Virus record (IMG/VR): IMGVR_UViG_3300029787_000184
Location: 1 to 33,452 of that record
DNA from: a virus
Direction: 5' to 3' (one strand)
DNA: 33,452 nt
The notes beneath the pieces are model-generated. The model was not told the DNA's origin. It saw only the letters and a list, made by a program, of their open reading frames with translations, and did no database searches. The position numbers and the translations under genes were made by a program. Positions 1 to 33,452 of the stretch are shown here, piece by piece. The stretch's first letter is position 1. Every line of letters starts with the position of its first letter.

Positions 1-101
1 ATTTTGTCAAGCTGTTGTTTTACTTCCTTGACATCATCACTCATAGTTTCTTGTTTTTCTTCAATACGTTTTATTGTTGAGCGTACTAGCTCGTCCTTGT
101 A
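1..101. repeat. Terminal direct repeat, copy at left end (circular overlap)
   Basis: Bases 1-101 match bases 33352-33452 with one difference: t at position 3 against c at 33354. A near-perfect overlap of about 100 bases at both ends is the usual sign of a circular or circularly permuted phage genome cut open by an assembler. The difference changes a Lys codon synonymously (aaa/aag) in the gene that crosses the join. That suggests real population variation, or a read error at the contig edge. Confidence 0.95.
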
Positions 102-564: not shown

Positions 565-810
565 TTATATAAAGTCATCTTCATAGTTTTCTGGTAAATA
601 ACTTTCTATTTCTGCAATTTGTTCTTCCGTTAAAGCGTTTTTATATATGTCTTGTGCAAGTATATATTTAAAATGTATTTCTATTGCTTCTACTTTTTTA
701 TTGTTTGCTATTTGATCTAATTGCATAGGTAGTTGGTTTAGAATATTATCTATACCCTCTTGACCTTGTTGCTCCATACTTGCTGTATTTCTTTTTATTG
801 TTGTACTCAT
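565..810 (-). CDS. Small hypothetical protein downstream of tail fibre
   Basis: This 81-residue soluble acidic protein has no signal or membrane segment. It has an N-terminal Gln-rich helix, the central segment EAIEIHFKYILAQDIYKNAL and an acidic end (ENYEDDFI). The start ATG at 810 shares its A with the TAA of the tail fibre gene (TAATG), so translation is very likely coupled to the fibre. By position it could be a fibre assembly chaperone. That is inference only, as no family is recognised. Confidence 0.7.
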   Translation of the reverse strand: MSTTIKRNTASMEQQGQEGIDNILNQLPMQLDQIANNKKVEAIEIHFKYILAQDIYKNALTEEQIAEIESYLPENYEDDFI

Positions 811-3800
811 TATTTAGATTTTAATAATTCAATTTCTGCTTTTAGTTCTTGTATTGCTTTTACAAGCACAGGCACTAATCTGCCATAACTAGCTTCAAGT
901 TTTTCTGGATTGTTATCATATACAAGTTTTAAGTTTTCATCATCTACTTCTTGTAAATCTTGTGCTATAAACCCTAAATCTTTTTGACCTACTTTTGCAC
1001 CATCTCTTGTGTTCCAATCAAAAGTAACAGGTTTTAATTTATCTACTACATCTAAACCATAATTTGATGGCTGTATATTTTCTTTATCTCTTTTATCTGA
1101 TAAAGCTGTAATACTTGTTACTTGACATCTTAAAGTAGCTATTGATGAGTTTCCTAAAGTTATTTCATTATTAACTGTTGCAGAACTAGCTGCCGCATTA
1201 TAACCTATGATAGTATTGTTATCACCTGATGTTAAATCATTTGTACCACTACTACCTGCTGATCCACCTATAAGTGTGTTTTGCTCACCTGTAACTTGGT
1301 CTCCTGCTTCATATCCTAAAGCTGTATTATGGTCTCCTGTGGTTACATCTTCTAGAGATTCGTAACCAACAGCCGTATTTTTATTTCCAGATGTTTGAGA
1401 GTTTAATGCTTGATAACCAAAAGCAACTTGATGGTTACCACTTGATGTACTTGTACAGGCCTGAGAACCTATTACTGTATGCTGATTATAAGCACCACTT
1501 AAGGCATCTAAAGCCCTTTCACCAATTACAACAGAACTAGAAGCATTGACTAATTTACCTGCTTGATACCCTATATAAACAGACCTAGAATTTGTTGTAT
1601 GTCCTGTACCTGCATCTACACCTAAACAAACATTAAAATCTCCTGTCGTTATAGCATCTCCTGCATCGTGTCCTATTATCACGTTTGAATTTCCATCAGT
1701 CAAAGCATTACCTGCATTATCACCTATTACAAGATTGTTTGCTGGGTTACCACTTAAACCAGATGGTATGTTAATAAAATAAGCAGACGTTCCATCTATT
1801 GTTACATCACTTAAACCATTCAATGACGAAGCACCACCACCACCACCACTTGCATCTTCCCAAGCTACACCACTACCTGTCGATGTTAATACTTGACCAT
1901 CAGATCCTTGTGCGCCACTAACTTTAAGGTTTGCTAGATTTACAATACCTGTTGCTGTTATATCGTCAAAAGTTACATCATCAGTTGTTCTAACATTTTG
2001 ATCCATAGCATAAACCTCATTAGTGCCTTGACCTGTGTTAATTCCTGTACAAGTTAAAGTAGCAACGCCAGAAACATTAGAACCAAAAGTTATTTGACCA
2101 TATCCGTCTGATGTCATTATGTTATATAAACTACCACTATCAGAGTTACCTTTTATATAAAAAGATGAGCCGTCTTGCGTAAGGCTTCCGTCATCTTCAA
2201 AGCCTATTTCACCATATGTGTCTGTGTTACCTTGATAATCAGTACCTTTAAATACTAATTTGTGAGGCGCAGCATTATTGCTTGTACTTGTTGGGTTTAA
2301 AGTTATATCTCCTGAAACTTCTACACCACTACTTGTTGTTTCAAACTTTAAAGAATTGTCGTAATATAACTTAACACCTGCATCTGTAATAAAACGAGCC
2401 ATATATTCAGAAGCACCTTTATTTATTTGTACTTCTGTTCCATCACTTTGTATGCTTAAAACTCCAGTTCCTGATTCGTTTATATAAGAATTGCTACCAT
2501 CGTGATAGATTTGTAAATCATTTCCACCACCAAACTTTGCTTTAACATTATCTAAAAACGTAAAAGCTTTACTAACAATTACCTCTGTATCACCACCATC
2601 TAATTTAAAATATTCTGTTGTACCATCAGAGCCATCATCAGATTTAAATATAATATCACCATCATTAGTATTGTTAGTTATAGTTAAATCACCTGTGTTA
2701 TTTGTAATAAATGAATTTGTACCGTTGTGGCTAAGTCTTAAATCACCTCCACCACCTATTTTTAAAAGAACAGAATCAAGAAGTTTTATTTCTTTAGAAA
2801 AAATTACTTGCTCAGCGCCACCATCTACTTTAAAGTATTCAGTAGTTCCACTACTTCCATCATCAGACTTAAATATTATATCTTTGTCGTCAATACTTTG
2901 TTGAATAATCAAGTCACCTGTTCCTACTTGGTCTATATAAGAATTACTACCATCGTGATAGATTTGCAAGTCTCCTGTTAGTTGTACTGAATTACCAAAC
3001 AAAAGTTTTACACTATCAATAAATTGCATTGTTTTAGCAACTTGTGTTAAGCCATATGTACCATCTAATTTTATATAATCAGTTAAACCCCCTGAGCCAT
3101 CATCTGACTGAAAATGTATGTCTTTATTATCAACATTATTTCTTATGTATAAATCACCTGTTCCTACTTGGTCTATATAAGAGTTACTGGCATCGTGGTA
3201 TATTTGTAAATCACCAAGCGAATCACCACCAAATGCAATAGTACTATTATCAGGAAATTTAGTAAATAATCTCCCTCCACCTTGACCTCCTTTACTTCCA
3301 TCTAACCTAAAGTATTCAGTCGTACCATCAGAGCCATCATCACAATTAAAAATAATATCTTTGTCATTTGCATCATTTGTAATTTCTAAATTACCTGTTG
3401 AATTAGTAATCACACTACTTGTACCATTATGTATAAAGTGAAAATCAAAAGAATCACCTAACGATATATATTTACTATCTGCTTGTTTAATAGTTTTAGA
3501 AAAAATTATACTAGTATCACCACCATCAACTCTAAAATATTCAGCTACACCATTACTTCCATCATCTGATTCAAATATTATATCACTATCATTTGCACCT
3601 TGCGTAATTTTTAAGTTTCCAGTTTCGTTTATTATAAAAGAATCGGTCCCATTATGATTTATTTTTAAGTCATTTCCAGTACCGATATTAAGTGTGTTGC
3701 TATCTAATACATTTAAGTCTCCTGCAAAAGTTGCATCTGTATAAAAGTTTATTATGTCAGAAGTATCTTCTGTAAACCTCATAAACTCAGTACCACCTGT

Positions 3801-4847
3801 AAAGAATCTCAATCTATCATCAATGTCCTCACTTATATAAGTATGACTGCCACCACCAAAATATAATTTTTTAGCTACAGAAATACTTATATCACCTGCA
3901 AAAGTTGCATTTTGTGATGAGTCTATTGTTAGTGCTAAAGTATCTACGTCATCACCACCTCCACCAGTTCTAATTTGTAATACTCCACTTCCTGCGCTAG
4001 CACCATATGCTCTGATTCTTATATTATCTCCTGATCTATCTAATACACCTGAACTTGTTTGTGAAGCTATTAAAGAACCATTCCAAACTATTGGACCACC
4101 TACCTCTAATTTTTCAGAGGGTGAAGTTATTCCAATACCTACGTTACCTCCAAAAGTTGAAACACCATTACTATCTATTGTTAATCTTGTTGTATTATTT
4201 GTATTAAGTACTAAATCTGCATCAGAATCAATAATTAGTTTTTCTCCTGTATCTGCATATTGTATATATGCTCTTTCGTTTGTTGTTTGGTGAAAAGATA
4301 ATTTTGGATTTCCAGTAGCAGAGGAATCAATTATTTTAATTTCTCCACTTGTTGTTACATCTCCTGCAAAAGTTGCATTACCCCCAGCGGACATATCAAG
4401 AGTTAAAGCTGTAATTGTAGAACCATCATCATTTCCTTTGAATATTATATCTTTATCTGAAACATTTGATTGAATTACAAAATCAGTTGAAGAATTAGAA
4501 AAAGTACCTATTGTAGTACCAGCATCTTTAAAAAGAATATCACCACCATCAGCATCAAGACTTAAATCACCAGCAACATCAATAGTAAAATCACCACTAC
4601 CACTTTCTGTTAAAGTTGTTGCGTTACTACCATCACCAGTAATTGAGATTGATCCTTGTACTTGTAGAGTATCAGATCCACTTGGAGTTGCACCAATACC
4701 AACTTTTGCAGTAGATAAAAATAGTTGTGAGTTGTTACCACTACCATCAGTAATTTGTTGAGGTGTTGAATCTAATATAGTGCTACCAGTTGTTTTTAGT
4801 AGCCCTACATAAGTAACCGAAATTTGTGTATTAGTTAGTGTTGCCAT
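810..4847 (-). CDS. Tail fibre / receptor-binding protein with C-terminal S74 autocleaving chaperone
   Basis: This 1345-residue protein is a long fibre. Residues about 1-370 are Gly/Ser/Asp-rich beta sequence with several FAGD segments. They are followed by six repeats of 75-80 residues built around DLQIYHDGSNSYI and a DKDI-F-SDDGS unit. Residues about 1035-1220 hold roughly ten shorter Asn/Gly repeats (GNKNTAVGYESL type) like those in trimeric beta-roll stalks and heads. The C-terminus is a peptidase S74 intramolecular chaperone. The motif SDKRDKENI starts at Ser1250 with Lys1255, the expected Ser/Lys cleavage pair, and is followed by LKPVTFDWN and LGFIAQDLQEV. A fragment of about 96 residues should be released after trimer folding. 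It is the largest gene in the genome and is likely to set host range. Confidence 0.93.
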   Translation of the reverse strand: MATLTNTQISVTYVGLLKTTGSTILDSTPQQITDGSGNNSQLFLSTAKVGIGATPSGSDTLQVQGSISITGDGSNATTLTESGSGDFTIDVAGDLSLDADGGDILFKDAGTTIGTFSNSSTDFVIQSNVSDKDIIFKGNDDGSTITALTLDMSAGGNATFAGDVTTSGEIKIIDSSATGNPKLSFHQTTNERAYIQYADTGEKLIIDSDADLVLNTNNTTRLTIDSNGVSTFGGNVGIGITSPSEKLEVGGPIVWNGSLIASQTSSGVLDRSGDNIRIRAYGASAGSGVLQIRTGGGGDDVDTLALTIDSSQNATFAGDISISVAKKLYFGGGSHTYISEDIDDRLRFFTGGTEFMRFTEDTSDIINFYTDATFAGDLNVLDSNTLNIGTGNDLKINHNGTDSFIINETGNLKITQGANDSDIIFESDDGSNGVAEYFRVDGGDTSIIFSKTIKQADSKYISLGDSFDFHFIHNGTSSVITNSTGNLEITNDANDKDIIFNCDDGSDGTTEYFRLDGSKGGQGGGRLFTKFPDNSTIAFGGDSLGDLQIYHDASNSYIDQVGTGDLYIRNNVDNKDIHFQSDDGSGGLTDYIKLDGTYGLTQVAKTMQFIDSVKLLFGNSVQLTGDLQIYHDGSNSYIDQVGTGDLIIQQSIDDKDIIFKSDDGSSGTTEYFKVDGGAEQVIFSKEIKLLDSVLLKIGGGGDLRLSHNGTNSFITNNTGDLTITNNTNDGDIIFKSDDGSDGTTEYFKLDGGDTEVIVSKAFTFLDNVKAKFGGGNDLQIYHDGSNSYINESGTGVLSIQSDGTEVQINKGASEYMARFITDAGVKLYYDNSLKFETTSSGVEVSGDITLNPTSTSNNAAPHKLVFKGTDYQGNTDTYGEIGFEDDGSLTQDGSSFYIKGNSDSGSLYNIMTSDGYGQITFGSNVSGVATLTCTGINTGQGTNEVYAMDQNVRTTDDVTFDDITATGIVNLANLKVSGAQGSDGQVLTSTGSGVAWEDASGGGGGASSLNGLSDVTIDGTSAYFINIPSGLSGNPANNLVIGDNAGNALTDGNSNVIIGHDAGDAITTGDFNVCLGVDAGTGHTTNSRSVYIGYQAGKLVNASSSVVIGERALDALSGAYNQHTVIGSQACTSTSSGNHQVAFGYQALNSQTSGNKNTAVGYESLEDVTTGDHNTALGYEAGDQVTGEQNTLIGGSAGSSGTNDLTSGDNNTIIGYNAAASSATVNNEITLGNSSIATLRCQVTSITALSDKRDKENIQPSNYGLDVVDKLKPVTFDWNTRDGAKVGQKDLGFIAQDLQEVDDENLKLVYDNNPEKLEASYGRLVPVLVKAIQELKAEIELLKSK
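1185..1740 (-). repeat. Short Asn/Gly beta-roll-like repeats in the tail fibre
   Basis: About ten units of 18-24 residues each carry an (N/V)-x-(V/A)-x-G-x-x-(A/S) core, for example NLVIGDNAGNAL, HQVAFGYQALNS and HNTALGYEAGDQ. The pattern resembles the head and stalk repeats of trimeric adhesins and other phage fibres that end in an S74 chaperone. It lies between the shaft repeats and the self-cleaving C-terminus, so it is a likely distal receptor-contact region. Confidence 0.75.
2430..3720 (-). repeat. Six tandem coding repeats of 225-240 bp in the tail fibre
   Basis: A block centred on the codons for IYHDGSNSYI recurs with anchor points at about 2501, 2726, 2954, 3194, 3428 and 3653. The spacings are 225, 228, 240, 234 and 225 bp, all multiples of three. 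Copies 1, 3 and 4 are most alike at DNA level. Copies 5 and 6 have drifted. Each protein unit carries a DKDI-F-SDDGS-TEYF-LDG segment. This is an expandable fibre shaft that could change length by in-frame recombination. Confidence 0.85.
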
Positions 4848-5421: not shown

Positions 5422-7194
5422 TTATCTAGGGTTTAAGTATCCTTGGTTTGGCATATCAATTGGTCGCATAGCCACTTCCCTTGGGTTTTGGTTTTTCTTT
5501 GGTGCTGCTGGACCTTCAAATCTAGCCCCTTTTCTGTCATCAATTGGTAACGCACTAATTATTTTTCTTGCTCTTCCTACGGATATTTTTTTGTTGCCTT
5601 TCTTTAAATATATTCTACGAAGCCAAACGTGATGGCAATTGGCACCACCCTTGTATTTCCATATATTATATCCACCCAAATTTGTACCTGCAGGGCTAAA
5701 TTCTTTATTTGCTAAGCTTTTTTTATTTAGATCTTCAACACGATAAACTCGATTAGCGTTCAGCATTTTTCTACAAAATTCTCTTGTAATTACTTTGCCA
5801 TCTTCGTCTATTGTCAATTCACCAGAATACGCATAACGTACTTTAAATAAACTTGTATCTTGTTTGCTTTTTTTTCTTGCATCGCCAGTCATTACACTAG
5901 CAAACTCAAAATAACTTTGAATTTGGCTTTCATCTTCTAATGCTGGTCTTTCATCAATCAACTCCCAATCATCACCCATTTCCTCACCTTTTGAAATTAA
6001 ATCATCAGCCAAAACAGACATACTTTCAGTATCTAAATAAACATCACTTGATAGTTCATTTTTTACACCAGTTTCTTCTTCTCTTGTTTCTTCATCTTCA
6101 ACATTATCTAAGTCTGTAAACTCTAACGGCTGAAGCGTTTTAAAGTACAAATTAAGGCTGATTTTGTTATAAGCTAATATTTGTTCAAAACTGTTAATTA
6201 AAAGCGTTTGAAACGGCCTAATAACTGTGTTATCCATTAATATAGAAGCTGTTTTTAATTCGTCAGCATTATTACCTAAACCTGTTTGATCTTTTATACC
6301 CAATAGCATTGGACTTACAACTCTATGACTAACCATTATTTTTCTTGTGCTTTCGCTTGATAAAAACTCATACTGATTATGTGCATCACTTAATTGTACT
6401 GGTTCTAAATTTGCTTGACTTTCTGGGTTATCATTAAATGCTAAGATAAATTTACCTGCGTTACTGCTGCCTGAAAATTTTTGATATATTCTTTGCTCAA
6501 TCAATTCTCTTTCTTCTTCGTTTGGCACCCCGTTGTTAAAGTTTATAAGCATTGATGGGGCAAGACCATTCATTATATTATTTAAATGATAGTTTGAAAC
6601 TTCTTCTTCTAGTTCGCTATATTGCAAACCACCTTGATAATCAACAGGCGAGTAATAAAAAAAACCTGCTCTATAAGGCTTGATGTACATTATCTCTAAA
6701 CTTTCTTTACTTTTACCAAAGGCTGGTATTCTTTTTAATTCTGTATTTTGTTTTACTTTAGTCCAATCACTTGCGTAATAATATGCTTTAATTTCACCAT
6801 CTTCACTTTTTTCCGCCCTTAATGTTTCGACAGGAATGTGTTCTAACTCAGCAATTCTAGATCGATCTTGTGAATAAATAACTTGTACGGCACACTGACC
6901 CATTAATTTTAAATCATAACATAATTTTCTAACACAATCATCAGTAAATAAAACTTTCATCTGTGCATATTCATTTGGCTTTCTGTTGCTGTCTGTTGCA
7001 TCTAAACCTTTACCAAATATCATTTCACTAATTCCGTTGATTATAGCATTGTTTGTTGGGCTGCCGTTGTATCGATCAATTAAATACTGAAAATACATAT
7101 TATCTTCACCATAAAAGATATATTCTTTATTACGCACCTCTTTTATTTCTGGGCTTGTATATGTGCTTAAATTGATTACTCTTAAATCACTCAT
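5422..7194 (-). CDS. Portal protein with C-terminal extension domain
   Basis: This 590-residue protein forms the dodecameric DNA channel at one capsid vertex. The first roughly 370 residues have portal character: YIFYGEDNMYFQYLIDRYNG, NAIINGISEMIFG, and the segment LLGIKDQTGLGNNADELKT that occurs in portals near the clip/stem region. After an acidic linker (about 355-430), residues about 430-560 form a second domain with KVRYAYSG, TREFCRKMLNA and GGANCHHVWLRR. I recall this domain appended to portals in Bacteroidota phages, but I do not know its function. It sits 4 bp after the preceding structural gene and 5 bp before the connector gene. Confidence 0.88.
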   Translation of the reverse strand: MSDLRVINLSTYTSPEIKEVRNKEYIFYGEDNMYFQYLIDRYNGSPTNNAIINGISEMIFGKGLDATDSNRKPNEYAQMKVLFTDDCVRKLCYDLKLMGQCAVQVIYSQDRSRIAELEHIPVETLRAEKSEDGEIKAYYYASDWTKVKQNTELKRIPAFGKSKESLEIMYIKPYRAGFFYYSPVDYQGGLQYSELEEEVSNYHLNNIMNGLAPSMLINFNNGVPNEEERELIEQRIYQKFSGSSNAGKFILAFNDNPESQANLEPVQLSDAHNQYEFLSSESTRKIMVSHRVVSPMLLGIKDQTGLGNNADELKTASILMDNTVIRPFQTLLINSFEQILAYNKISLNLYFKTLQPLEFTDLDNVEDEETREEETGVKNELSSDVYLDTESMSVLADDLISKGEEMGDDWELIDERPALEDESQIQSYFEFASVMTGDARKKSKQDTSLFKVRYAYSGELTIDEDGKVITREFCRKMLNANRVYRVEDLNKKSLANKEFSPAGTNLGGYNIWKYKGGANCHHVWLRRIYLKKGNKKISVGRARKIISALPIDDRKGARFEGPAAPKKNQNPREVAMRPIDMPNQGYLNPR

Positions 7195-20395: not shown

Positions 20396-21559
20396 TTATT
20401 GAATTGCGTATCTACCAAAGTTTGGTTTGCTTAATATTGAGTAGGTTGCATATCTTACTGCATCTGTTATGTGATTGTTTTTATCTTCTGGGGTGTTGGT
20501 TAGCTTACCTGTTTTATCTTCTTTCCATTTATAATTCCTGAATTCTTGAATGGCGTTGGTACTATCTTTGTGTATATGAATCTTAAACCTTTTTAATAAA
20601 TCAATACCTGCGTTTACACTATCTCTGCCTTTTAAACTAGCACGGATCTTCCAGCCCATTCGCCTTAATTCTTCAATTATTCTTGGTTCACTACTATCGG
20701 CATATATTAGTTCTTTTGTAATTATTTGTTTGAAATAGCTATGTATGTCTCCTGTTGTCATCATTGTTCTGTATAATAATTCTTTTATATATAAATTTGA
20801 TTCTTTCTTCCATACCGATACTAATGCCGTTGGATCGTTTGTAAAGCCAAAGTCCATACCCATAGAAACAAAGTCGGCATCTTCTGGTATCTGATTGCAT
20901 TCAACGTAATTAAATATTGTGGCTTTGCTGATTCCCTTTTCACCCAGCCCATATATTTGCCAGTATTGTTCATCGGTATATTGTAGCCTTTCAATTTCTT
21001 TAATTAATGCCTGTTCTAAAAAGGGGTTATCTTTGTATGTGGTTTTTAAAAAGTCAGCATCTTCTCGTGGAATTATTTTATCGTATATCCAGTGATACTC
21101 TTCACTTGGGTTGTAATCAAGTATTATCTTTTCGCTTGTTCTAAATAACAATTGCTGCCAATCTTCCCAGTATAATTCGTTTGCTTCGTTTATAAATAAC
21201 AAATCACGCTTTCTTCCTCGAACTTTAACAGGCTGATCTAATGAAATAAATTCAATTAAATTGCCAAAAAGATTATACTCGCTGCTTGATTTATTGTGAT
21301 TATCTTCTGAATATAAATTTTGTTCTCTTAATATATTTATAAAATCTCTGAGAACTGTTGCTCTTAGTGCTGGGTAAGTCTTACGACAAATTGTGATAGT
21401 CTTGCCAGAGTTATTAAGGCAATAATAAAAAATAATATATAAAAGAATGTTAAATGTTTTTCCTGATCTGGTTCCACCTTGATTAACTATTATTTTCTTT
21501 TGACTATTTACTAAATGCTTAAATACAATATTAGTTTTTAGGCTTATCTGCATTTTCAA
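20396..21559 (-). CDS. terL: Terminase large subunit
   Basis: This 387-residue packaging motor cuts concatemeric DNA and pumps it into the prohead. The ATPase half has Walker A GGTRSGKT (28-35), Walker B LLFINEA (120-126) with the catalytic Glu, and a coupling segment (ILDYNPSEEYHW). The nuclease half has GMDFGFTNDPTA (Asp236), YADSSEP (Asp288) and NNHITDAVRY (Asp366), the three-acid metal site of the RNase H-like fold. The layout is that of the PBSX-like Terminase_3 type. It overlaps the small subunit gene by 29 bp. A start at the second Met (21553) is equally possible. Confidence 0.95.
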   Translation of the reverse strand: MKMQISLKTNIVFKHLVNSQKKIIVNQGGTRSGKTFNILLYIIFYYCLNNSGKTITICRKTYPALRATVLRDFINILREQNLYSEDNHNKSSSEYNLFGNLIEFISLDQPVKVRGRKRDLLFINEANELYWEDWQQLLFRTSEKIILDYNPSEEYHWIYDKIIPREDADFLKTTYKDNPFLEQALIKEIERLQYTDEQYWQIYGLGEKGISKATIFNYVECNQIPEDADFVSMGMDFGFTNDPTALVSVWKKESNLYIKELLYRTMMTTGDIHSYFKQIITKELIYADSSEPRIIEELRRMGWKIRASLKGRDSVNAGIDLLKRFKIHIHKDSTNAIQEFRNYKWKEDKTGKLTNTPEDKNNHITDAVRYATYSILSKPNFGRYAIQ

Positions 21560-21890
21560 TTATTTCTATTTTGACATTTGTAGGCACACCATCAGCACCA
21601 GTAATCTCTTGTCTTTCCACATAGCCTCTTTTCTTACCTTTTGTTTTTAAATAAAATATGGTAGCTGCTGTTGAATTGTCTTTAATCTGCTCTAATAATT
21701 TACTTTCGGCAAAGTCCAAACTCATATTAGCTATATCATCTACTTGTGCTTTAAATTCTAAATCATCATTATAATAATTATAAAAGGTAGTTCTGCCTAT
21801 GCCTACTTGTTTACAAGCAGTAGTTACTATGCCTAATGATTTTTCTAAAGCTTCAATTAGTGCTTTTTTAATGTGTTCACTTTTGTTCAT
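21531..21890 (-). CDS. terS: Terminase small subunit (predicted)
   Basis: This is a protein of about 119 residues. It starts with the helix SEHIKKALIEALEKS, followed by a helix-turn-helix (VTTACKQVGIGRTTFYNYYN), then the oligomerisation helix SLDFAESKLLEQIKDNS and the segment FYLKTKGKKRGYVERQEI, common in small terminase subunits. It should bind the packaging site and recruit the large subunit. I chose ATG at 21890. The longer frame from 21947 adds a Lys/Gln-rich extension and overlaps the dioxygenase gene by 71 bp. The chosen start overlaps it by 14 bp. Confidence 0.88.
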   Translation of the reverse strand: MNKSEHIKKALIEALEKSLGIVTTACKQVGIGRTTFYNYYNDDLEFKAQVDDIANMSLDFAESKLLEQIKDNSTAATIFYLKTKGKKRGYVERQEITGADGVPTNVKIEIIENADKPKN

Positions 21891-22758
21891 TTTCAATTGT
21901 TTGTTTGTAGTCTTTTGCTTCTTTTTTTCTTTGTCGCAGAGTATCAAGGTGTTCTGGCTTTAATCTGTTTTGTTCTCTTATCATTTTCTTTTCTCTGATT
22001 CTATCTACTTCTTCTTCAATTGTCATACATTGCCACATACGTTCTAGCGAATAATAAACAATACTATATCTATATGCCTTTGAATTGTTGTAATCAATTG
22101 GGCTTACTCCGTGCAATAAGTCTTGACCATCAAATATTGTTACGCTATTGTCTGCAACCTCTAATGATATATCTATTTCAGGTATAACCAAATGCCCACC
22201 CATTACATCACTTTTAAACACAAGCATATTACTATATACGTTTTTAAAATTACCACTATCAAAATGGTATTTTAGTTGGTTGTTTTTGTTTACTATGCCA
22301 CTTGTGAATACTGTATCTTTTATTACCCATTGATCCTTTACTTTTTCATTTACTTTTTCTTTGTGTTGTTTGTAAGTTTCTTGAAAGTAATCTTTATAAT
22401 ATTTTTGTATTTGTTTAGCAAAGTTGCTGATAATGTAATGTTGCTTTGGTGTATTATATCCCATTGCTGATGAGGTGCAATAGTCGTGTTTGTTTTCTTG
22501 CCTTGGGCTATATCCAAAAACTGCACTTGTGTTTACTAGTCCGTGTGTTCTTTTGCCTGTTGAATACTTAATATTTTTTACTGCCCATCTAACATCTTTT
22601 GGTGGTGTAGATAATACTTTGTATAACAATATTGGCCTTCCATTATGATATACAATTGCATCTTCTTTTATATGCCTTGATACATCACTTAATCTTGCAG
22701 TTCTTCTAATGTAATCTTTTTTATTTATTTCTTTTCTTTCTACGTCTATTCTTTTCAT
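21877..22758 (-). CDS. TET/JBP-family 2-oxoglutarate/Fe(II) dioxygenase (DNA base hydroxylase)
   Basis: The 293-residue protein has the double-stranded beta-helix signature. The iron ligands are His165 and Asp167 in LKYHFDSGNF and His216 in GQDLLHGVSP. Arg230 in AYRYSIVYYS is the likely 2-oxoglutarate contact. The strands MGGHLVIPEIDISLEVADNS and VTIFDG complete the core. An upstream segment with CTSSAMGYNTPKQ and the N-K-N-N-x-L-x-Y-H spacing fit the phage TET/JBP group, which oxidises the methyl group of 5-methylcytosine or thymine in DNA. Its ATG overlaps the glycosyltransferase stop as ATGA, and it ends 14 bp inside the small terminase gene. The C-terminus (about 245-293) is a charged helix. 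Substrate choice cannot be read from the sequence. Confidence 0.88.
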   Translation of the reverse strand: MKRIDVERKEINKKDYIRRTARLSDVSRHIKEDAIVYHNGRPILLYKVLSTPPKDVRWAVKNIKYSTGKRTHGLVNTSAVFGYSPRQENKHDYCTSSAMGYNTPKQHYIISNFAKQIQKYYKDYFQETYKQHKEKVNEKVKDQWVIKDTVFTSGIVNKNNQLKYHFDSGNFKNVYSNMLVFKSDVMGGHLVIPEIDISLEVADNSVTIFDGQDLLHGVSPIDYNNSKAYRYSIVYYSLERMWQCMTIEEEVDRIREKKMIREQNRLKPEHLDTLRQRKKEAKDYKQTIENEQK

Positions 22759-23498
22759 CTTGTATCTTTTAATCTTAATTCTGCGTTTCCTGTTGATTTT
22801 CTAATATACATTTGACAAAGTTCTGGAAACATACTTTGTATTTGATATATAGAATCATATACATATTTCTTTGTTCTTATTTCTTGTAGGCCACCCTCTT
22901 CTTTATAATAGTTTGATTTTACTGTTAGATAATCTAGCCTAACTAACTTTTTGTTTTTTATATACTGCCTTATGCTATATTCATAATCTTCTCCGTGATT
23001 TGTAACCCTTTCTAAAAAAGGATCGTGTTCAACAATAACGCCAAACATACTTGCTATTATATAACAAATTTTTGTATATATTCTGTTCTTCATAAAGTAT
23101 GGGTTTGAAGCTGCATATATTCCAAACGTTTTTGCATTTATCATTTCGCAAGTTTTAAAGCCCTTGTAAAAAACTTCTTTTTCTAAATCAACAACATCAA
23201 CAAGTTTTGCTTTTACCTTTCTTTGCACCTTTTCTATATCATCATCAAACATCATTAGTCTTGTACCCTCTTTATAATATTTTTCTATATAGTTTCTTTG
23301 TTTTCCAATTGTTGGCACGCCAACCACTATTTTATATTCATCTTGTAAGGTGTTTTTATAAATGGTTTCTTCTTCTTTGTTTGCTACAAATATTGTAATG
23401 CGTTTTTTGTCAATACTATAATCATTTAACAATTTTAAAGTTTTGTTTTTAATTGTTTCAGATCTTTTATAAGAGGGTATGGCAATTTTATATTCCAT
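22755..23498 (-). CDS. TET-associated glycosyltransferase (TAGT-like, GT-A fold)
   Basis: The protein is about 247 residues long. It begins MEYKIAIPSYKRSETIKNKT, the nucleotide-sugar binding start of a GT-A enzyme. It has ITIFVANKEEE, then VVGVPTIGKQRNYIEKYY and a metal-binding Asp cluster in LMMFDDDIEKV. A candidate catalytic GED motif lies in NHGEDYEYSIRQY. The PSYKRS-KTL-LL, FV-N-EE, G-QRN, DDD and HGEDYE sequence order is that of the TAGT family found beside phage TET/JBP enzymes, which puts sugars on hydroxymethylated bases. An alternative start at 23507 adds three residues. It is coupled to the dioxygenase by ATGA overlap and to the ParB-like gene by an 11-20 bp overlap. Confidence 0.85.
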   Translation of the reverse strand: MEYKIAIPSYKRSETIKNKTLKLLNDYSIDKKRITIFVANKEEETIYKNTLQDEYKIVVGVPTIGKQRNYIEKYYKEGTRLMMFDDDIEKVQRKVKAKLVDVVDLEKEVFYKGFKTCEMINAKTFGIYAASNPYFMKNRIYTKICYIIASMFGVIVEHDPFLERVTNHGEDYEYSIRQYIKNKKLVRLDYLTVKSNYYKEEGGLQEIRTKKYVYDSIYQIQSMFPELCQMYIRKSTGNAELRLKDTR

Positions 23499-24060
23499 AT
23501 TTATCAATCAAAAATTTAAATACTTGTGTGTTATCGGTTAGATTTTCTTTTTCTCTTATTTTTTCTAAATCAGCTATGGCTTTTTCATATTCATCAGAAT
23601 TAAAATATAAAGTAATCTGTTTTATTTTCGCATTTATATACGTATCTAGCTCGTGATCAAATATATCTTTATCAAGCTGTGGCTCTTCCTCATCTTCAAA
23701 ATATACCTTTGGCAGATCCAAACCCCAGTCGTTTATTTGGCTTGGGTTCCATTCGTTTGCTAAAATATCCCAGTCCCATTCACCAAAGCTGCTATTATCT
23801 TTAATAATAAATTCATCTTTTTGTTCATCTGTCCAACCCTCTGCTACTAAAATATGAACTGTTGAAAACCCTGCTGCGTGACAGGCCTTTAATCTCATAT
23901 TACCACCCAGCACAATCATATCCTCATCTACTACTATAGGCCTTTTTTCTAACATTTCTGGAAAGTCTTTAAGGCTTTTGACCAGCTTTTTAAATTTATA
24001 ATCTTTAATTATTCTAGGGTTTTTTGGGTTGTATTTTACTTTGCTAATATCTACTATCAT
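23488..24060 (-). CDS. ParB-like domain protein upstream of the DNA modification genes
   Basis: The 190-residue protein has a ParB/sulfiredoxin-like N-terminal domain. It shows DISKVKYNPKNPRII, KRPIVVDEDMIVLGG, and the NMRLKACHAAGFSTV motif at about 54-68, followed by GWTDEQKDEFIIKDN. The second half is acidic with a long helix. ParB-fold proteins recur in phage neighbourhoods with base-modifying enzymes and terminases. Their exact part there (DNA binding, CTP use or nuclease) is not settled. The start overlaps the RecE-like gene as ATGA and the end overlaps the glycosyltransferase, so it belongs to the same cassette. Confidence 0.82.
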   Translation of the reverse strand: MIVDISKVKYNPKNPRIIKDYKFKKLVKSLKDFPEMLEKRPIVVDEDMIVLGGNMRLKACHAAGFSTVHILVAEGWTDEQKDEFIIKDNSSFGEWDWDILANEWNPSQINDWGLDLPKVYFEDEEEPQLDKDIFDHELDTYINAKIKQITLYFNSDEYEKAIADLEKIREKENLTDNTQVFKFLIDKYGI

Positions 24061-24863
24061 AATATTCCGTTTATTGTGTAACTATTTAAATCTATTTCGT
24101 TATCAGTGTTAAAAAATTGTTTGTACCTTTCTATTGCTTGAAATGTTTTTTGCATTCCACTTAAATAAAATTCCTCACTAACACCAAAGATACCAATATC
24201 AAGCGTTTGTTTGTCAATGACAAGAAATTTAAACTGATGAAAAGACCTGTTAAAAAGCTCACAATAAATGTAAACCTGTATATCGTAATCAAAAGCATAT
24301 GCGCTAAACTGAGATCTTTTATTTACAAAGTTATCTATTGAAGATGTGGTTTTTATATCTACCATTTTATTTTCAGCTATTATATCAGCCTTACCACGAA
24401 AAGGAATGCCCTCAATCATATCAATTGCTGGAACTTCAAATTCAGAATCACTCATAAGCCTTAGTGCTGATTCATTTTTTAACAACGCATCTTGCAGTCT
24501 TTCAGTTTCAGATTTTTCCTTTGCAGTAAATATTGTATGCTCGTTGCCCTCGTTTTCTTTTATTGTATCTCTAAATATTTTTGCTGTTCTTGATTTGCAT
24601 TCTACAAAAGTGTATTTTTCAAATAGGTGTGGCTCTAATATTGATTGATGCAATAGCCTACCCATTCTTAATGCTGATGTCATAGGGCTGCCGTACTTCG
24701 TTGTGTAGTAATAACTTTTTGGGCTTTTTAATAATTTCTTTACAATTGAGCTGCTTAATGCTGCCTTGCCTAAATAGTTGTAGTAAAAATCATCGCTCAT
24801 CATCTTGGTCAGCAAATCTGCTTTGTTCCAAGTTGTTGAATCTAATAGTTGTATTGAGTTCAT
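24057..24863 (-). CDS. PD-(D/E)XK exonuclease, RecE / exonuclease VIII-like
   Basis: The 268-residue protein carries AALSSSIVKKLLKSPKSYYY near the N-terminus and MGRLLHQSILEP (His72). Its nuclease core has FRGKADIIAENKMVDIKTTS, with Asp160, Asp169 and Lys171 forming the D-DxK site, followed by SQFSAYAFDYDIQVYIY with a conserved Gln. This is the layout of RecB-type 5'-3' exonucleases of the RecE/Exo VIII kind, used for recombination and end processing. No annealing partner (RecT/Bet) is recognised nearby. It overlaps the upstream gene by 74 bp at its start; a later start at Met21 or Met22 is possible. Confidence 0.87.
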   Translation of the reverse strand: MNSIQLLDSTTWNKADLLTKMMSDDFYYNYLGKAALSSSIVKKLLKSPKSYYYTTKYGSPMTSALRMGRLLHQSILEPHLFEKYTFVECKSRTAKIFRDTIKENEGNEHTIFTAKEKSETERLQDALLKNESALRLMSDSEFEVPAIDMIEGIPFRGKADIIAENKMVDIKTTSSIDNFVNKRSQFSAYAFDYDIQVYIYCELFNRSFHQFKFLVIDKQTLDIGIFGVSEEFYLSGMQKTFQAIERYKQFFNTDNEIDLNSYTINGIL

Positions 24864-28670: not shown

Positions 28671-29393
28671 TTATTTATTGTACTTTATATAAAGATCATA
28701 CATATACTGTAATTGATCTGAAATACTTTGATAATAATTAAGATAATGTTTCTTAGCTATTTTTTCCATTAATTTTATATCTAGTCCTCCTACTTTAAAA
28801 TCTAATCTTTTTAAAGCTGTAACTAATCTTGCTGCAAACACATTAGAAAACTGATTAGGGTATTTCCCTAAAACATAACACGCTTGATACACCCTTGTAG
28901 CTCTATCTAAATCAATCTGATAATTTTTATTTTTTAAAAGTTGTTTTGAGCTACCTATTGATTTATTTAAAAGATCTAAAACATTTAGAATGGTAAACTT
29001 TGATTTTGTTTCTGCATTCCATTGATAAGCGATCTTAAGAGCTTTTTTACAATTTATACTTCCTAAAGCTGCATTTCTTTTACAGAAATCTACTGCCGTC
29101 CATTGTTTACTTACTTGTAACTCATCTATATAATCTGTGTTGGTTTTAGTTGATACTATAAAATCAACAGGTATGTGAAGTGATTTAATTGCTTCTAGTC
29201 TATGTTGACCATCTATTATAGGGTATTTATTATCAATAGGATCTTTTTCTGATACAAGCATAGGCATTTGTTGTCCTATCTTATTAATTGAAATTTTTAA
29301 CCTGTTTTTGTTTCTGGTGTTTACTGTTCTGTTTCCTACAACATATTTAAATATGCTATAATCTTTTGTTGTTTTTATTTCTAAATTATTCAT
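28671..29393 (-). CDS. ParB-like nuclease-domain protein, early block
   Basis: This is a protein of about 240 residues. The N-terminal ParB/sulfiredoxin-type domain shows VVGNRTVNTRNKNRLKISI, then QQMPMLVSEK and the YPIIDGQHRLEAIKSLHIPV motif (DGQHR at 61-65). The remaining 150 residues are helical and basic. I chose ATG at 29393 over the frame start at 29435, because the extra residues (MWINGVLDFLLQTF) only overlap the upstream gene. This domain type occurs in phage regulators and nucleases. It is the second gene of the first early-type transcript, so a takeover role is plausible. It differs clearly from the other ParB-like gene at 23488-24060. Confidence 0.8.
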   Translation of the reverse strand: MNNLEIKTTKDYSIFKYVVGNRTVNTRNKNRLKISINKIGQQMPMLVSEKDPIDNKYPIIDGQHRLEAIKSLHIPVDFIVSTKTNTDYIDELQVSKQWTAVDFCKRNAALGSINCKKALKIAYQWNAETKSKFTILNVLDLLNKSIGSSKQLLKNKNYQIDLDRATRVYQACYVLGKYPNQFSNVFAARLVTALKRLDFKVGGLDIKLMEKIAKKHYLNYYQSISDQLQYMYDLYIKYNK

Positions 29394-29583
29394 AAAAGTT
29401 TGGAGTAAAAAATCTAACACACCATTTATCCACACCCTCTAATTTGTCAAACCATTCTTGGCTACATTCTTTTAAAGGGGTTGGGTTTTTAAGATCTGGT
29501 TCACCATTTTTAAAGGTAGGATAAATCGTACCTGTAATATCAATATGGCAACCAACTGATTTTAATTCTATTAATTTTGGCAT
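29386..29583 (-). CDS. Small protein, first gene of the early-type transcript
   Basis: This 65-residue protein begins MPKLIELKSVGCHIDITGTI, followed by YPTFKNGEPDLKNP, CSQEWFDKLEGVDKWCVRFF and a short tail. The start (a strand pair with GCHID) and the SQEWFDxL helix recur in small phage proteins as I recall them. It starts 33 bp after a promoter-like element and overlaps the ParB-like gene by 8 bp. The function is unknown. Confidence 0.7.
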   Translation of the reverse strand: MPKLIELKSVGCHIDITGTIYPTFKNGEPDLKNPTPLKECSQEWFDKLEGVDKWCVRFFTPNFYE

Positions 29584-33318: not shown

Positions 33319-33452
33319 CTGTTTTTACTTATTTGATACAATCTCTCGTCAATCTTGTCAAGCTGTTGTTTTACTTCCTTGACATCATCACTCATAGTTT
33401 CTTGTTTTTCTTCAATACGTTTTATTGTTGAGCGTACTAGCTCGTCCTTGTA
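33315..33452 (-). CDS. Membrane-anchored coiled-coil protein, C-terminal part (continues from position 281)
   Basis: These are the last 45 codons plus stop of the 105-residue protein that begins at 281 and crosses the join. The segment starts at the Tyr of YKDELVRSTIKR and ends in LDKIDERLYQISKNR. It is all charged helix with heptad spacing. The TGA stop (33317-33315) overlaps the next ATG (33318-33316). A gene caller treating the contig as linear would miss it or split it. Confidence 0.85.
   Translation of the reverse strand, partial: YKDELVRSTIKRIEEKQETMSDDVKEVKQQLDKIDERLYQISKNR
33352..33452. repeat. Terminal direct repeat, copy at right end
   Basis: This is the second copy of the 101-base overlap with positions 1-101. 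Joining the two copies leaves about 33.35 kb and restores one uninterrupted 105-codon reading frame across the join, which supports true circularity of the assembly. The sequence alone does not show whether the packaged DNA is headful-permuted or has cohesive ends. Confidence 0.95.

Follow-up and report, generated by a model that had tools for sequence, protein, structure and literature searches.

Genes 1–5 of Gordonia phage CaiB, which precede the terminase genes, include those for a ParB-like protein, a TET/JBP dioxygenase, a pyrophosphorylase, and a kinase, with restriction evasion as a possible role (PMC9302106); in Rhodococcus phage Tonitrus, ParB is listed in a pre-terminase thymidine hypermodification system (PMC11955845). 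In the GenBank record of Mycobacterium phage Acadian, genes for ParB, TET, and a homologue of the TET-associated glycosyltransferase (TAGT) come before those of the small (TerS) and large (TerL) terminase subunits. As these three phages carry comparable pre-terminase genes, cassettes of ParB, TET, an elaborating enzyme, and terminase are a kind already known from cultured actinophages, and the listing of ParB in CaiB and Tonitrus means that it is not, as the original prediction had it, an undescribed component. In Mycobacterium phage Acadian the order is ParB-TET-TAGT-deacetylase; Mycobacterium phage KayaCho has ParB-TET and, ahead of its terminase, no annotated elaborator. Phages M6, ViI, and phi W-14 hypermodify thymidine through 5-hydroxymethyluracil (5hmU) made at the nucleotide level and elaborated by amino acid or amine chemistry; kinetoplastids make base J with JBP1/2, which hydroxylate thymine in DNA, and a glucosyltransferase. 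The phage TET systems of Burke et al. 2021 reportedly encode a TET, a glycosyltransferase, and a C5-methyltransferase together, and the characterized phage TETs are said to act on 5-methylcytosine (5mC).

The window analyzed here is the whole of a 33,452-nt stretch of viral DNA. It has a 98-nt exact repeat at its ends and, since the terminal direct repeat is present at both ends, is a complete genome of ~33.4 kb. Three overlapping genes had been predicted directly upstream of the terminase, and all were found as open reading frames at the expected coordinates on the minus strand, within an overlapping chain that runs exonuclease-ParB-TAGT-TET-TerS-TerL (Table 1). Overlaps of 4 nt join the exonuclease and ParB genes and likewise the TAGT and TET genes; the TAGT gene overlaps that for ParB by 20 nt when counted from its TTG and by 11 nt when counted from the in-frame ATG. 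Like the cassettes of Acadian (gp1-gp6), CaiB, Wooper, and Tonitrus, this one places a ParB-like protein, a TET-like protein, and an elaborating enzyme directly before the terminase. In contrast to those, it has its elaborator gene between the other two (ParB-TAGT-TET), its proteins are only ~30% identical to theirs, and it has no PIG-L deacetylase gene; ADDT (amino acid:DNA transferase) and kinase genes of the 5hmU type were likewise absent among the window genes scanned and were seen in relatives only. The phage is also small and low in GC (31%), and its terminase has its closest counterparts in phages of Bacteroides, Parabacteroides, and Flavobacterium (35-38% identity). These terminase matches, together with the presence of the nearest bacterial-genome TETs in Siphonobacter, suggest that the host is probably a member of the Bacteroidota. 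A distant blastn search against cultured phages found no related cassette DNA.

Table 1. Positions of the cassette, its neighbors, and the genome ends in the window
Feature	Position	Strand	Remarks
Terminal direct repeat, left copy	1..101	.	101 nt, one mismatch at position 3
Terminase large subunit (TerL)	20396..21559	-	Pfam Terminase_3 / 3C ~1e-20
Terminase small subunit (TerS)	21531..21947	-	overlaps TET 3' end; likely start ATG 21890
TET/JBP dioxygenase, 293 aa	21877..22758	-	PF12851; AlphaFold2 model; PDB fold matches
R230, expected 2-oxoglutarate-binding arginine	22069..22071	-	invariant; role by analogy
Distal iron ligand H216	22111..22113	-	invariant in TET alignments
HxD iron ligands H165 and D167 (YHFDSGNF)	22258..22266	-	invariant in TET alignments
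TAGT glycosyltransferase, 250 aa from TTG	22755..23507	-	ATG at 23498; PF20691; exchangeable-slot occupant
ParB-like protein, 190 aa	23488..24060	-	ParB N-terminal domain ~1-100 and unique C-terminal part
ParB C-terminal tail, residues 151-190	23491..23610	-	varies with slot-gene type
RecE-like exonuclease (DUF3799)	24057..24863	-	directly upstream of ParB; context, not claimed as cassette member
Terminal direct repeat, right copy	33352..33452	.	

To place the locus among its relatives, we fetched 80 viral contigs with TETs 50-98% identical to that of the window and mapped their neighborhoods; with cultured phages and further scans this gave 221 loci, the window included. Many of the contigs are closely related, and clustering at 82% identity left 49 TETs. 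The matches of the cassette genes to Pfam, PHROG, and structure profiles were far beyond chance; single-protein sequence searches of the PDB with the TET, TAGT, or ParB query gave no useful match. The dioxygenase matched Tet_JBP (PF12851) at 3.1e-11 with 43.2 bits against a Pfam cut-off of 34.9, and the 26 best PDB matches to its AlphaFold2 model (mean pLDDT 91.3) were all of the TET family (NgTET1, CcTET, CMD1, and TET2), with AlkB-type enzymes ranking after them; thus, neither profile nor fold search placed the enzyme outside TET/JBP. The predicted intact HxD...H iron site and the accompanying arginine are present, and all four residues are invariant both in a 32-sequence TET alignment and across the 49 representative TETs, down to ~25% identity. 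By analogy with its counterparts, Arg1896 of TET2 and Arg289 of NgTET1 (PMC4787775), R230 is expected to bind 2-oxoglutarate. The identification of the glycosyltransferase as a TAGT was borne out as well: the protein matched PF20691 at 8.5e-15 (55.7 bits; cut-off 27.5) and carries the motifs PSYKRS (residue 11), DDD (88), and HGEDYE (171). Its gene adjoins that of TET, also in relatives.

Because a TET and a TAGT are encoded by overlapping genes of a single unit that precedes the terminase, the natural reading is that a hydroxymethyl pyrimidine is glycosylated in the phage DNA, and we predict this with high confidence. Which pyrimidine is a more difficult question. Thymine is likelier than cytosine, since neither a C5-methyltransferase nor a thymidylate-synthase homologue was found in the phage and since the same TET pocket occurs elsewhere beside ADDT and 5hmU-kinase-type genes. 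Searches with PF00145 found no C5-methyltransferase anywhere in the window genome, which is complete, or in any of 15 named cultured phages with a TET; the profile exceeded its cut-off in five of the 51 records of one search and in L028, and most contigs lacked it. A match in L069 was dismissed, being below the cut-off and far from the TET gene. Searches of 22 records, window included, gave no homologue of thymidylate synthase, and hydroxymethylation should therefore occur in DNA. The 5hmU intermediate predicted here would thus be shared with M6, ViI, and phi W-14, and relatives of the window carry ADDT and kinase-type genes; unlike in those phages, TET would generate it within DNA, and a sugar would be attached rather than an amino acid or amine. 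The predicted course, thymine hydroxylation in DNA and then glycosylation, resembles that of base J, from which the window differs in having a ParB-like partner in place of a J-binding domain, none of which was recognized with Pfam. Within the relatives, the TETs of L070, L073, and L074 are 55-59% identical to that of the window and have ADDT beside them, and in actinophages ADDT and a 5-hmU-DNA-kinase-type gene lie beside the same TET type; in the TETs with such neighbors the pocket columns equal those of the window. Enzymes of the ADDT and 5hmU-kinase types are components of thymidine pathways that run through 5hmU (PMC6449724, PMC7653180, PMC11955845). Counting against thymine, the ADDT linkage inside the clade of the window comes from three contigs that are nearly identical to one another.

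The main alternative for the base is that TET oxidizes 5mC, made by a host methyltransferase, to 5hmC, which TAGT then glycosylates, as in Burke et al. 2021. Phage TETs have been summarized as partners of C5-methyltransferases and glycosyltransferases (PMC12730594), and in L027, L028, and L029 a small C5-methyltransferase-like gene (198-199 aa; PF00145 at 4e-7 in L027) directly follows that of TET, an arrangement that would suit 5mC as the substrate there and that speaks against thymine. We nevertheless consider this alternative rather unlikely for the window, as its complete genome and the named cultured phages lack the methyltransferase that distinguishes the Burke et al. systems, the same TET type adjoins ADDT and 5hmU-kinase-type genes, and host methylation alone would be expected to provide few sites. 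The residue three positions after the HxD motif is Asn in the window TET, and Asn or Asp at this position sets ParB-linked TETs apart from most others. Asn is likewise found at this position in TET2, which acts on 5mC; therefore, the pocket is not proof of thymine, and we did not use this residue as an indicator of the base.

The association of ParB with TET depended on the type of TET. Among TETs with sufficient sequence on their upstream side, a ParB profile seeded from TET-adjacent genes detected a ParB gene no more than 3 kb upstream in 79/79 of the pocket-type "N" and 47/47 of the cyanophage type, but in only one of the 18 of the remaining type; elsewhere, one match occurred in ~0.75 Mb. 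The five TETs detected in bacterial genomes all have ParB upstream as well, and the midpoint-rooted TET tree joins the clade of the window with that of the actinophages. A natural ParB-TET fusion (a 509-aa open reading frame in L202) was rejected as a frameshift or sequencing error, because in four close relatives (L203-L206) ParB and TET are encoded by two genes that overlap.

The ParB_N match of the window protein itself was weak (0.013, below the Pfam cut-off); PHROG ParB profiles matched it to 4e-24 (PHROG 620), and a profile of its relatives matched ParB CTPase domains in the PDB at 5e-9. Its model (pLDDT 84.6, lower in the middle region) retrieved ParB N-domains in the fold search, and residues G53, R56, and N89 are invariant, with D88 nearly so. 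The structural profile alignments to ParB-type chains stop at or before profile position 113, and no HTH domain was recognized by Pfam, PDB profile search, or fold search. Lacking a recognizable HTH domain, the protein is not a partition ParB; and as only the N-terminal domain matches, reading of DNA in the manner of parS recognition, by which the original prediction would have had it give the cassette sequence specificity, appears unlikely. Many of its closest cultured matches are phage proteins annotated as DNA modification methylases, from which we conclude that the ParB module recurs with DNA-modifying enzymes; in the ParB-methyltransferase proteins of Firmicutes phages the module is joined to the methylase, whereas in the window ParB is a separate protein beside TET. 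Free serine kinase, SbnI, and sulfiredoxin ranked after ParB in the fold search, and one could accordingly imagine ParB as an active chemical partner, carrying out nucleotide-dependent phosphotransfer as such folds do, instead of a loader or recruiter. This seems improbable to us: the best matches by both sequence and fold are ParB CTPase domains, and ParB is retained beside TETs that have no slot enzyme at all (L144, L162, and L164).

That the target of the cassette is not phage DNA but RNA, protein, a glycan, or host DNA (as a weapon) is conceivable from the many substrates that 2-oxoglutarate oxygenases and glycosyltransferases have as classes, and is very improbable given that the closest folds are DNA-base-oxidizing TETs, the glycosyltransferase family is the TET-associated one, DNA-specific ADDT and kinase-type genes occur among the neighbors in relatives, and the cassette lies beside the terminase in unrelated phages.

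The position between ParB and TET proved to be an exchangeable slot. In relatives of the window it holds one gene of 236-301 aa, except in L070, L073, and L074, where three genes encode ADDT, an FAD oxidoreductase, and a P-loop (kinase) protein. The single slot genes comprise the TAGT family, a 28%-identical TAGT (L001 and L002), a group whose TAGT match falls just below the cut-off, a second TAGT-related group, and an unassigned group (L051 and L067) that looks GT-B-like by eye only. Otherwise near-identical phages have different slot genes: the window, L004, or L005 compared with L001; L023 and L024 compared with L027 and L028; and the GTc1 group (L032, L035, L036, L038, L043, and L045) compared with the GTc2 group (L034, L037, L041, L042, and L044). 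In these swap pairs the TETs are 95-99% identical, the ParBs 86-97%, and the TerLs 96-99%; whereas the slot genes are 29-31% identical or unalignable. Among all 224 pairs with TETs at least 80% identical, slot-gene identity was below 60% in 110, whereas ParB identity never fell below 65% or TerL identity below 66%. Pairwise distances of TET correlated with those of ParB at 0.91, of TerL at 0.83, and of the slot gene at 0.50. Among cyanophage-type contigs, 61 have an FkbM-type methyltransferase in the slot, 5 have a TAGT, and 6 have no slot gene; in several cases TETs from contigs of different slot types are 91-94% identical. We concluded that the slot gene is exchanged between near-identical phages while the flanking ParB and TET are kept; the glycosyltransferase as an exchangeable member of the unit had been missed in the original prediction. 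Every relative that shows the exchange is a metagenome contig, yet an assembly chimera is exceedingly improbable, as each allele recurs in independent data sets (several GTc1 and several GTc2 contigs within one phage group), L001 and L002 come from different samples, the breaks fall at gene borders, and cyanophage-type contigs show the same exchange.

The C-terminal tail of ParB changes along with the slot gene. In the swap pairs, divergence starts within the last 100-130 nt of the ParB gene and stops abruptly at the start codon of TET. When ParB N-terminal parts differed by less than 10%, the mean tail distance was 0.04 for pairs of the same slot type and 0.34 for pairs of different types. 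The partial correlation of tail with slot type was 0.52, a value reached in 0/2000 label permutations that do not preserve relatedness, and a control segment (ParB residues 110-150) still gave 0.25; for these reasons part of the tail signal may reflect shared ancestry or breakpoint position. The covariation could even arise only from where recombination breaks fall; we hypothesize that the tail physically contacts the slot enzyme. A literature search, incomplete for key papers, found no description of slot exchange or of tail covariation, and these two features are what is new here.

The explanation that best accounts for these results overall, and that we hold with moderate confidence, is that ParB, TAGT, and TET form a post-replicative DNA-modification unit. 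TET would act on a pyrimidine after its incorporation into phage DNA and oxidize the 5-methyl group; the base is most likely thymine, which would yield 5hmU, and TAGT would then move a sugar onto the hydroxyl, giving a base-J-like glycosylated thymine in virion DNA. ParB would be an obligatory partner of the N-type TET, probably as an NTP-dependent factor that loads on DNA or recruits TET and, by way of the variable tail, the enzyme of the slot. Modification would fall in the packaging phase, as the genes would be co-translated with those of TerS and TerL; and because the slot enzyme is swapped between phages as a cassette, the decoration would change while the ParB-TET core stays constant. 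Gene identities, folds, synteny, slot exchange, and tail covariation are observed here; the base, the sugar, the timing, the way ParB works, and a benefit such as evasion of restriction or CRISPR are predicted. A more specific version, which we put forward tentatively and as doubtful in its full form, treats ParB-TET as a constant DNA-hydroxymethylating core, with ParB acting as an NTP-dependent clamp and its tail as the docking site of the elaborator. Tail and enzyme (one of several sugar transferases, an O-methyltransferase, ADDT with kinase, or nothing) would be exchanged as a single cassette, so that the DNA surface is altered in one recombination step, much as in bacterial serotype change, and modification-sensing defenses may be escaped.

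A sugar on a phage's own DNA bases is a known kind of viral disguise. The cassette makes testable both the role of the ParB-like protein in phage DNA hypermodification and the question of which base is oxidized by TETs that have no partner methyltransferase. With natural allele pairs that differ in the slot gene only, the effect of the attached group on restriction, on type IV (modification-dependent) defenses, and on packaging can be compared cleanly; and the slot genes are a source of new DNA glycosyltransferases, possibly with different sugars.

Beyond the two loci listed in the table, an FkbM-type methyltransferase gene adjoined TET in 61 cyanophage-type contigs, there occupying the slot, the exchangeable position between ParB and TET that holds the TAGT glycosyltransferase in the window. 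FkbM genes filled the slot beside TETs 91-94% identical to those of L144, L162, and L164, the three loci in which it was empty. Because this methyltransferase adjoins TET, we suggest that it O-methylates a hydroxymethyl base, a product of which we know no description. Comparison of the window TAGT with that of another TET locus, L005 (9258-10004), gave ~70% nucleotide identity in a central segment and >90% at both ends; this drop suggests that segments within the enzyme have been exchanged, as in a mosaic.

Features of the window and of other TET loci (L-numbers)
Feature	Locus	Position
FkbM-type methyltransferase adjoining TET	L087	5527-6225
Same	L088	4222-4923
Empty slot, ParB abutting or overlapping TET	L144	1468-1475
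Same	L162	4992-4995
Same	L164	2095-2098
P-loop protein, single slot gene	L222 (Siphonobacter isolate genome)	5505-6023
Small C5-methyltransferase-like gene between TET and TerS	L027	2524-3120
Same	L028	9259-9855
Same	L029	9113-9712
TSPPY-type (N4/N6) DNA methyltransferase, TerS-TerL interval	L073	10274-11437
Same	L074	6681-7844
Deacetylase gene next after TAGT	L081 (actinophage)	2438-3025
Same	L082 (actinophage)	5756-6349
Second ParB-like gene; weak GmrSD N-terminal domain match (0.006)	Window	28671-29435
Probable tail-fibre protein, 1345 aa; C-terminal S74 chaperone domain	Window	810-4847

For the three C5-methyltransferase-like genes, the Pfam match was confined to roughly the opening quarter to third of the model. 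Both phages with the TSPPY-type enzyme carry an amino acid:DNA transferase (ADDT) cassette. Within the window, the probable tail-fibre gene contained diverged repeats (2448-3685); the GmrSD N-terminal domain, weakly matched elsewhere in that genome, is the ParB-like portion of a type IV restriction enzyme.

The deacetylase of Acadian, a cultured Mycobacterium phage, belongs to the PIG-L (GlcNAc deacetylase) family, which suggests that GlcNAc is the sugar transferred in these actinophages and that deacetylation follows.
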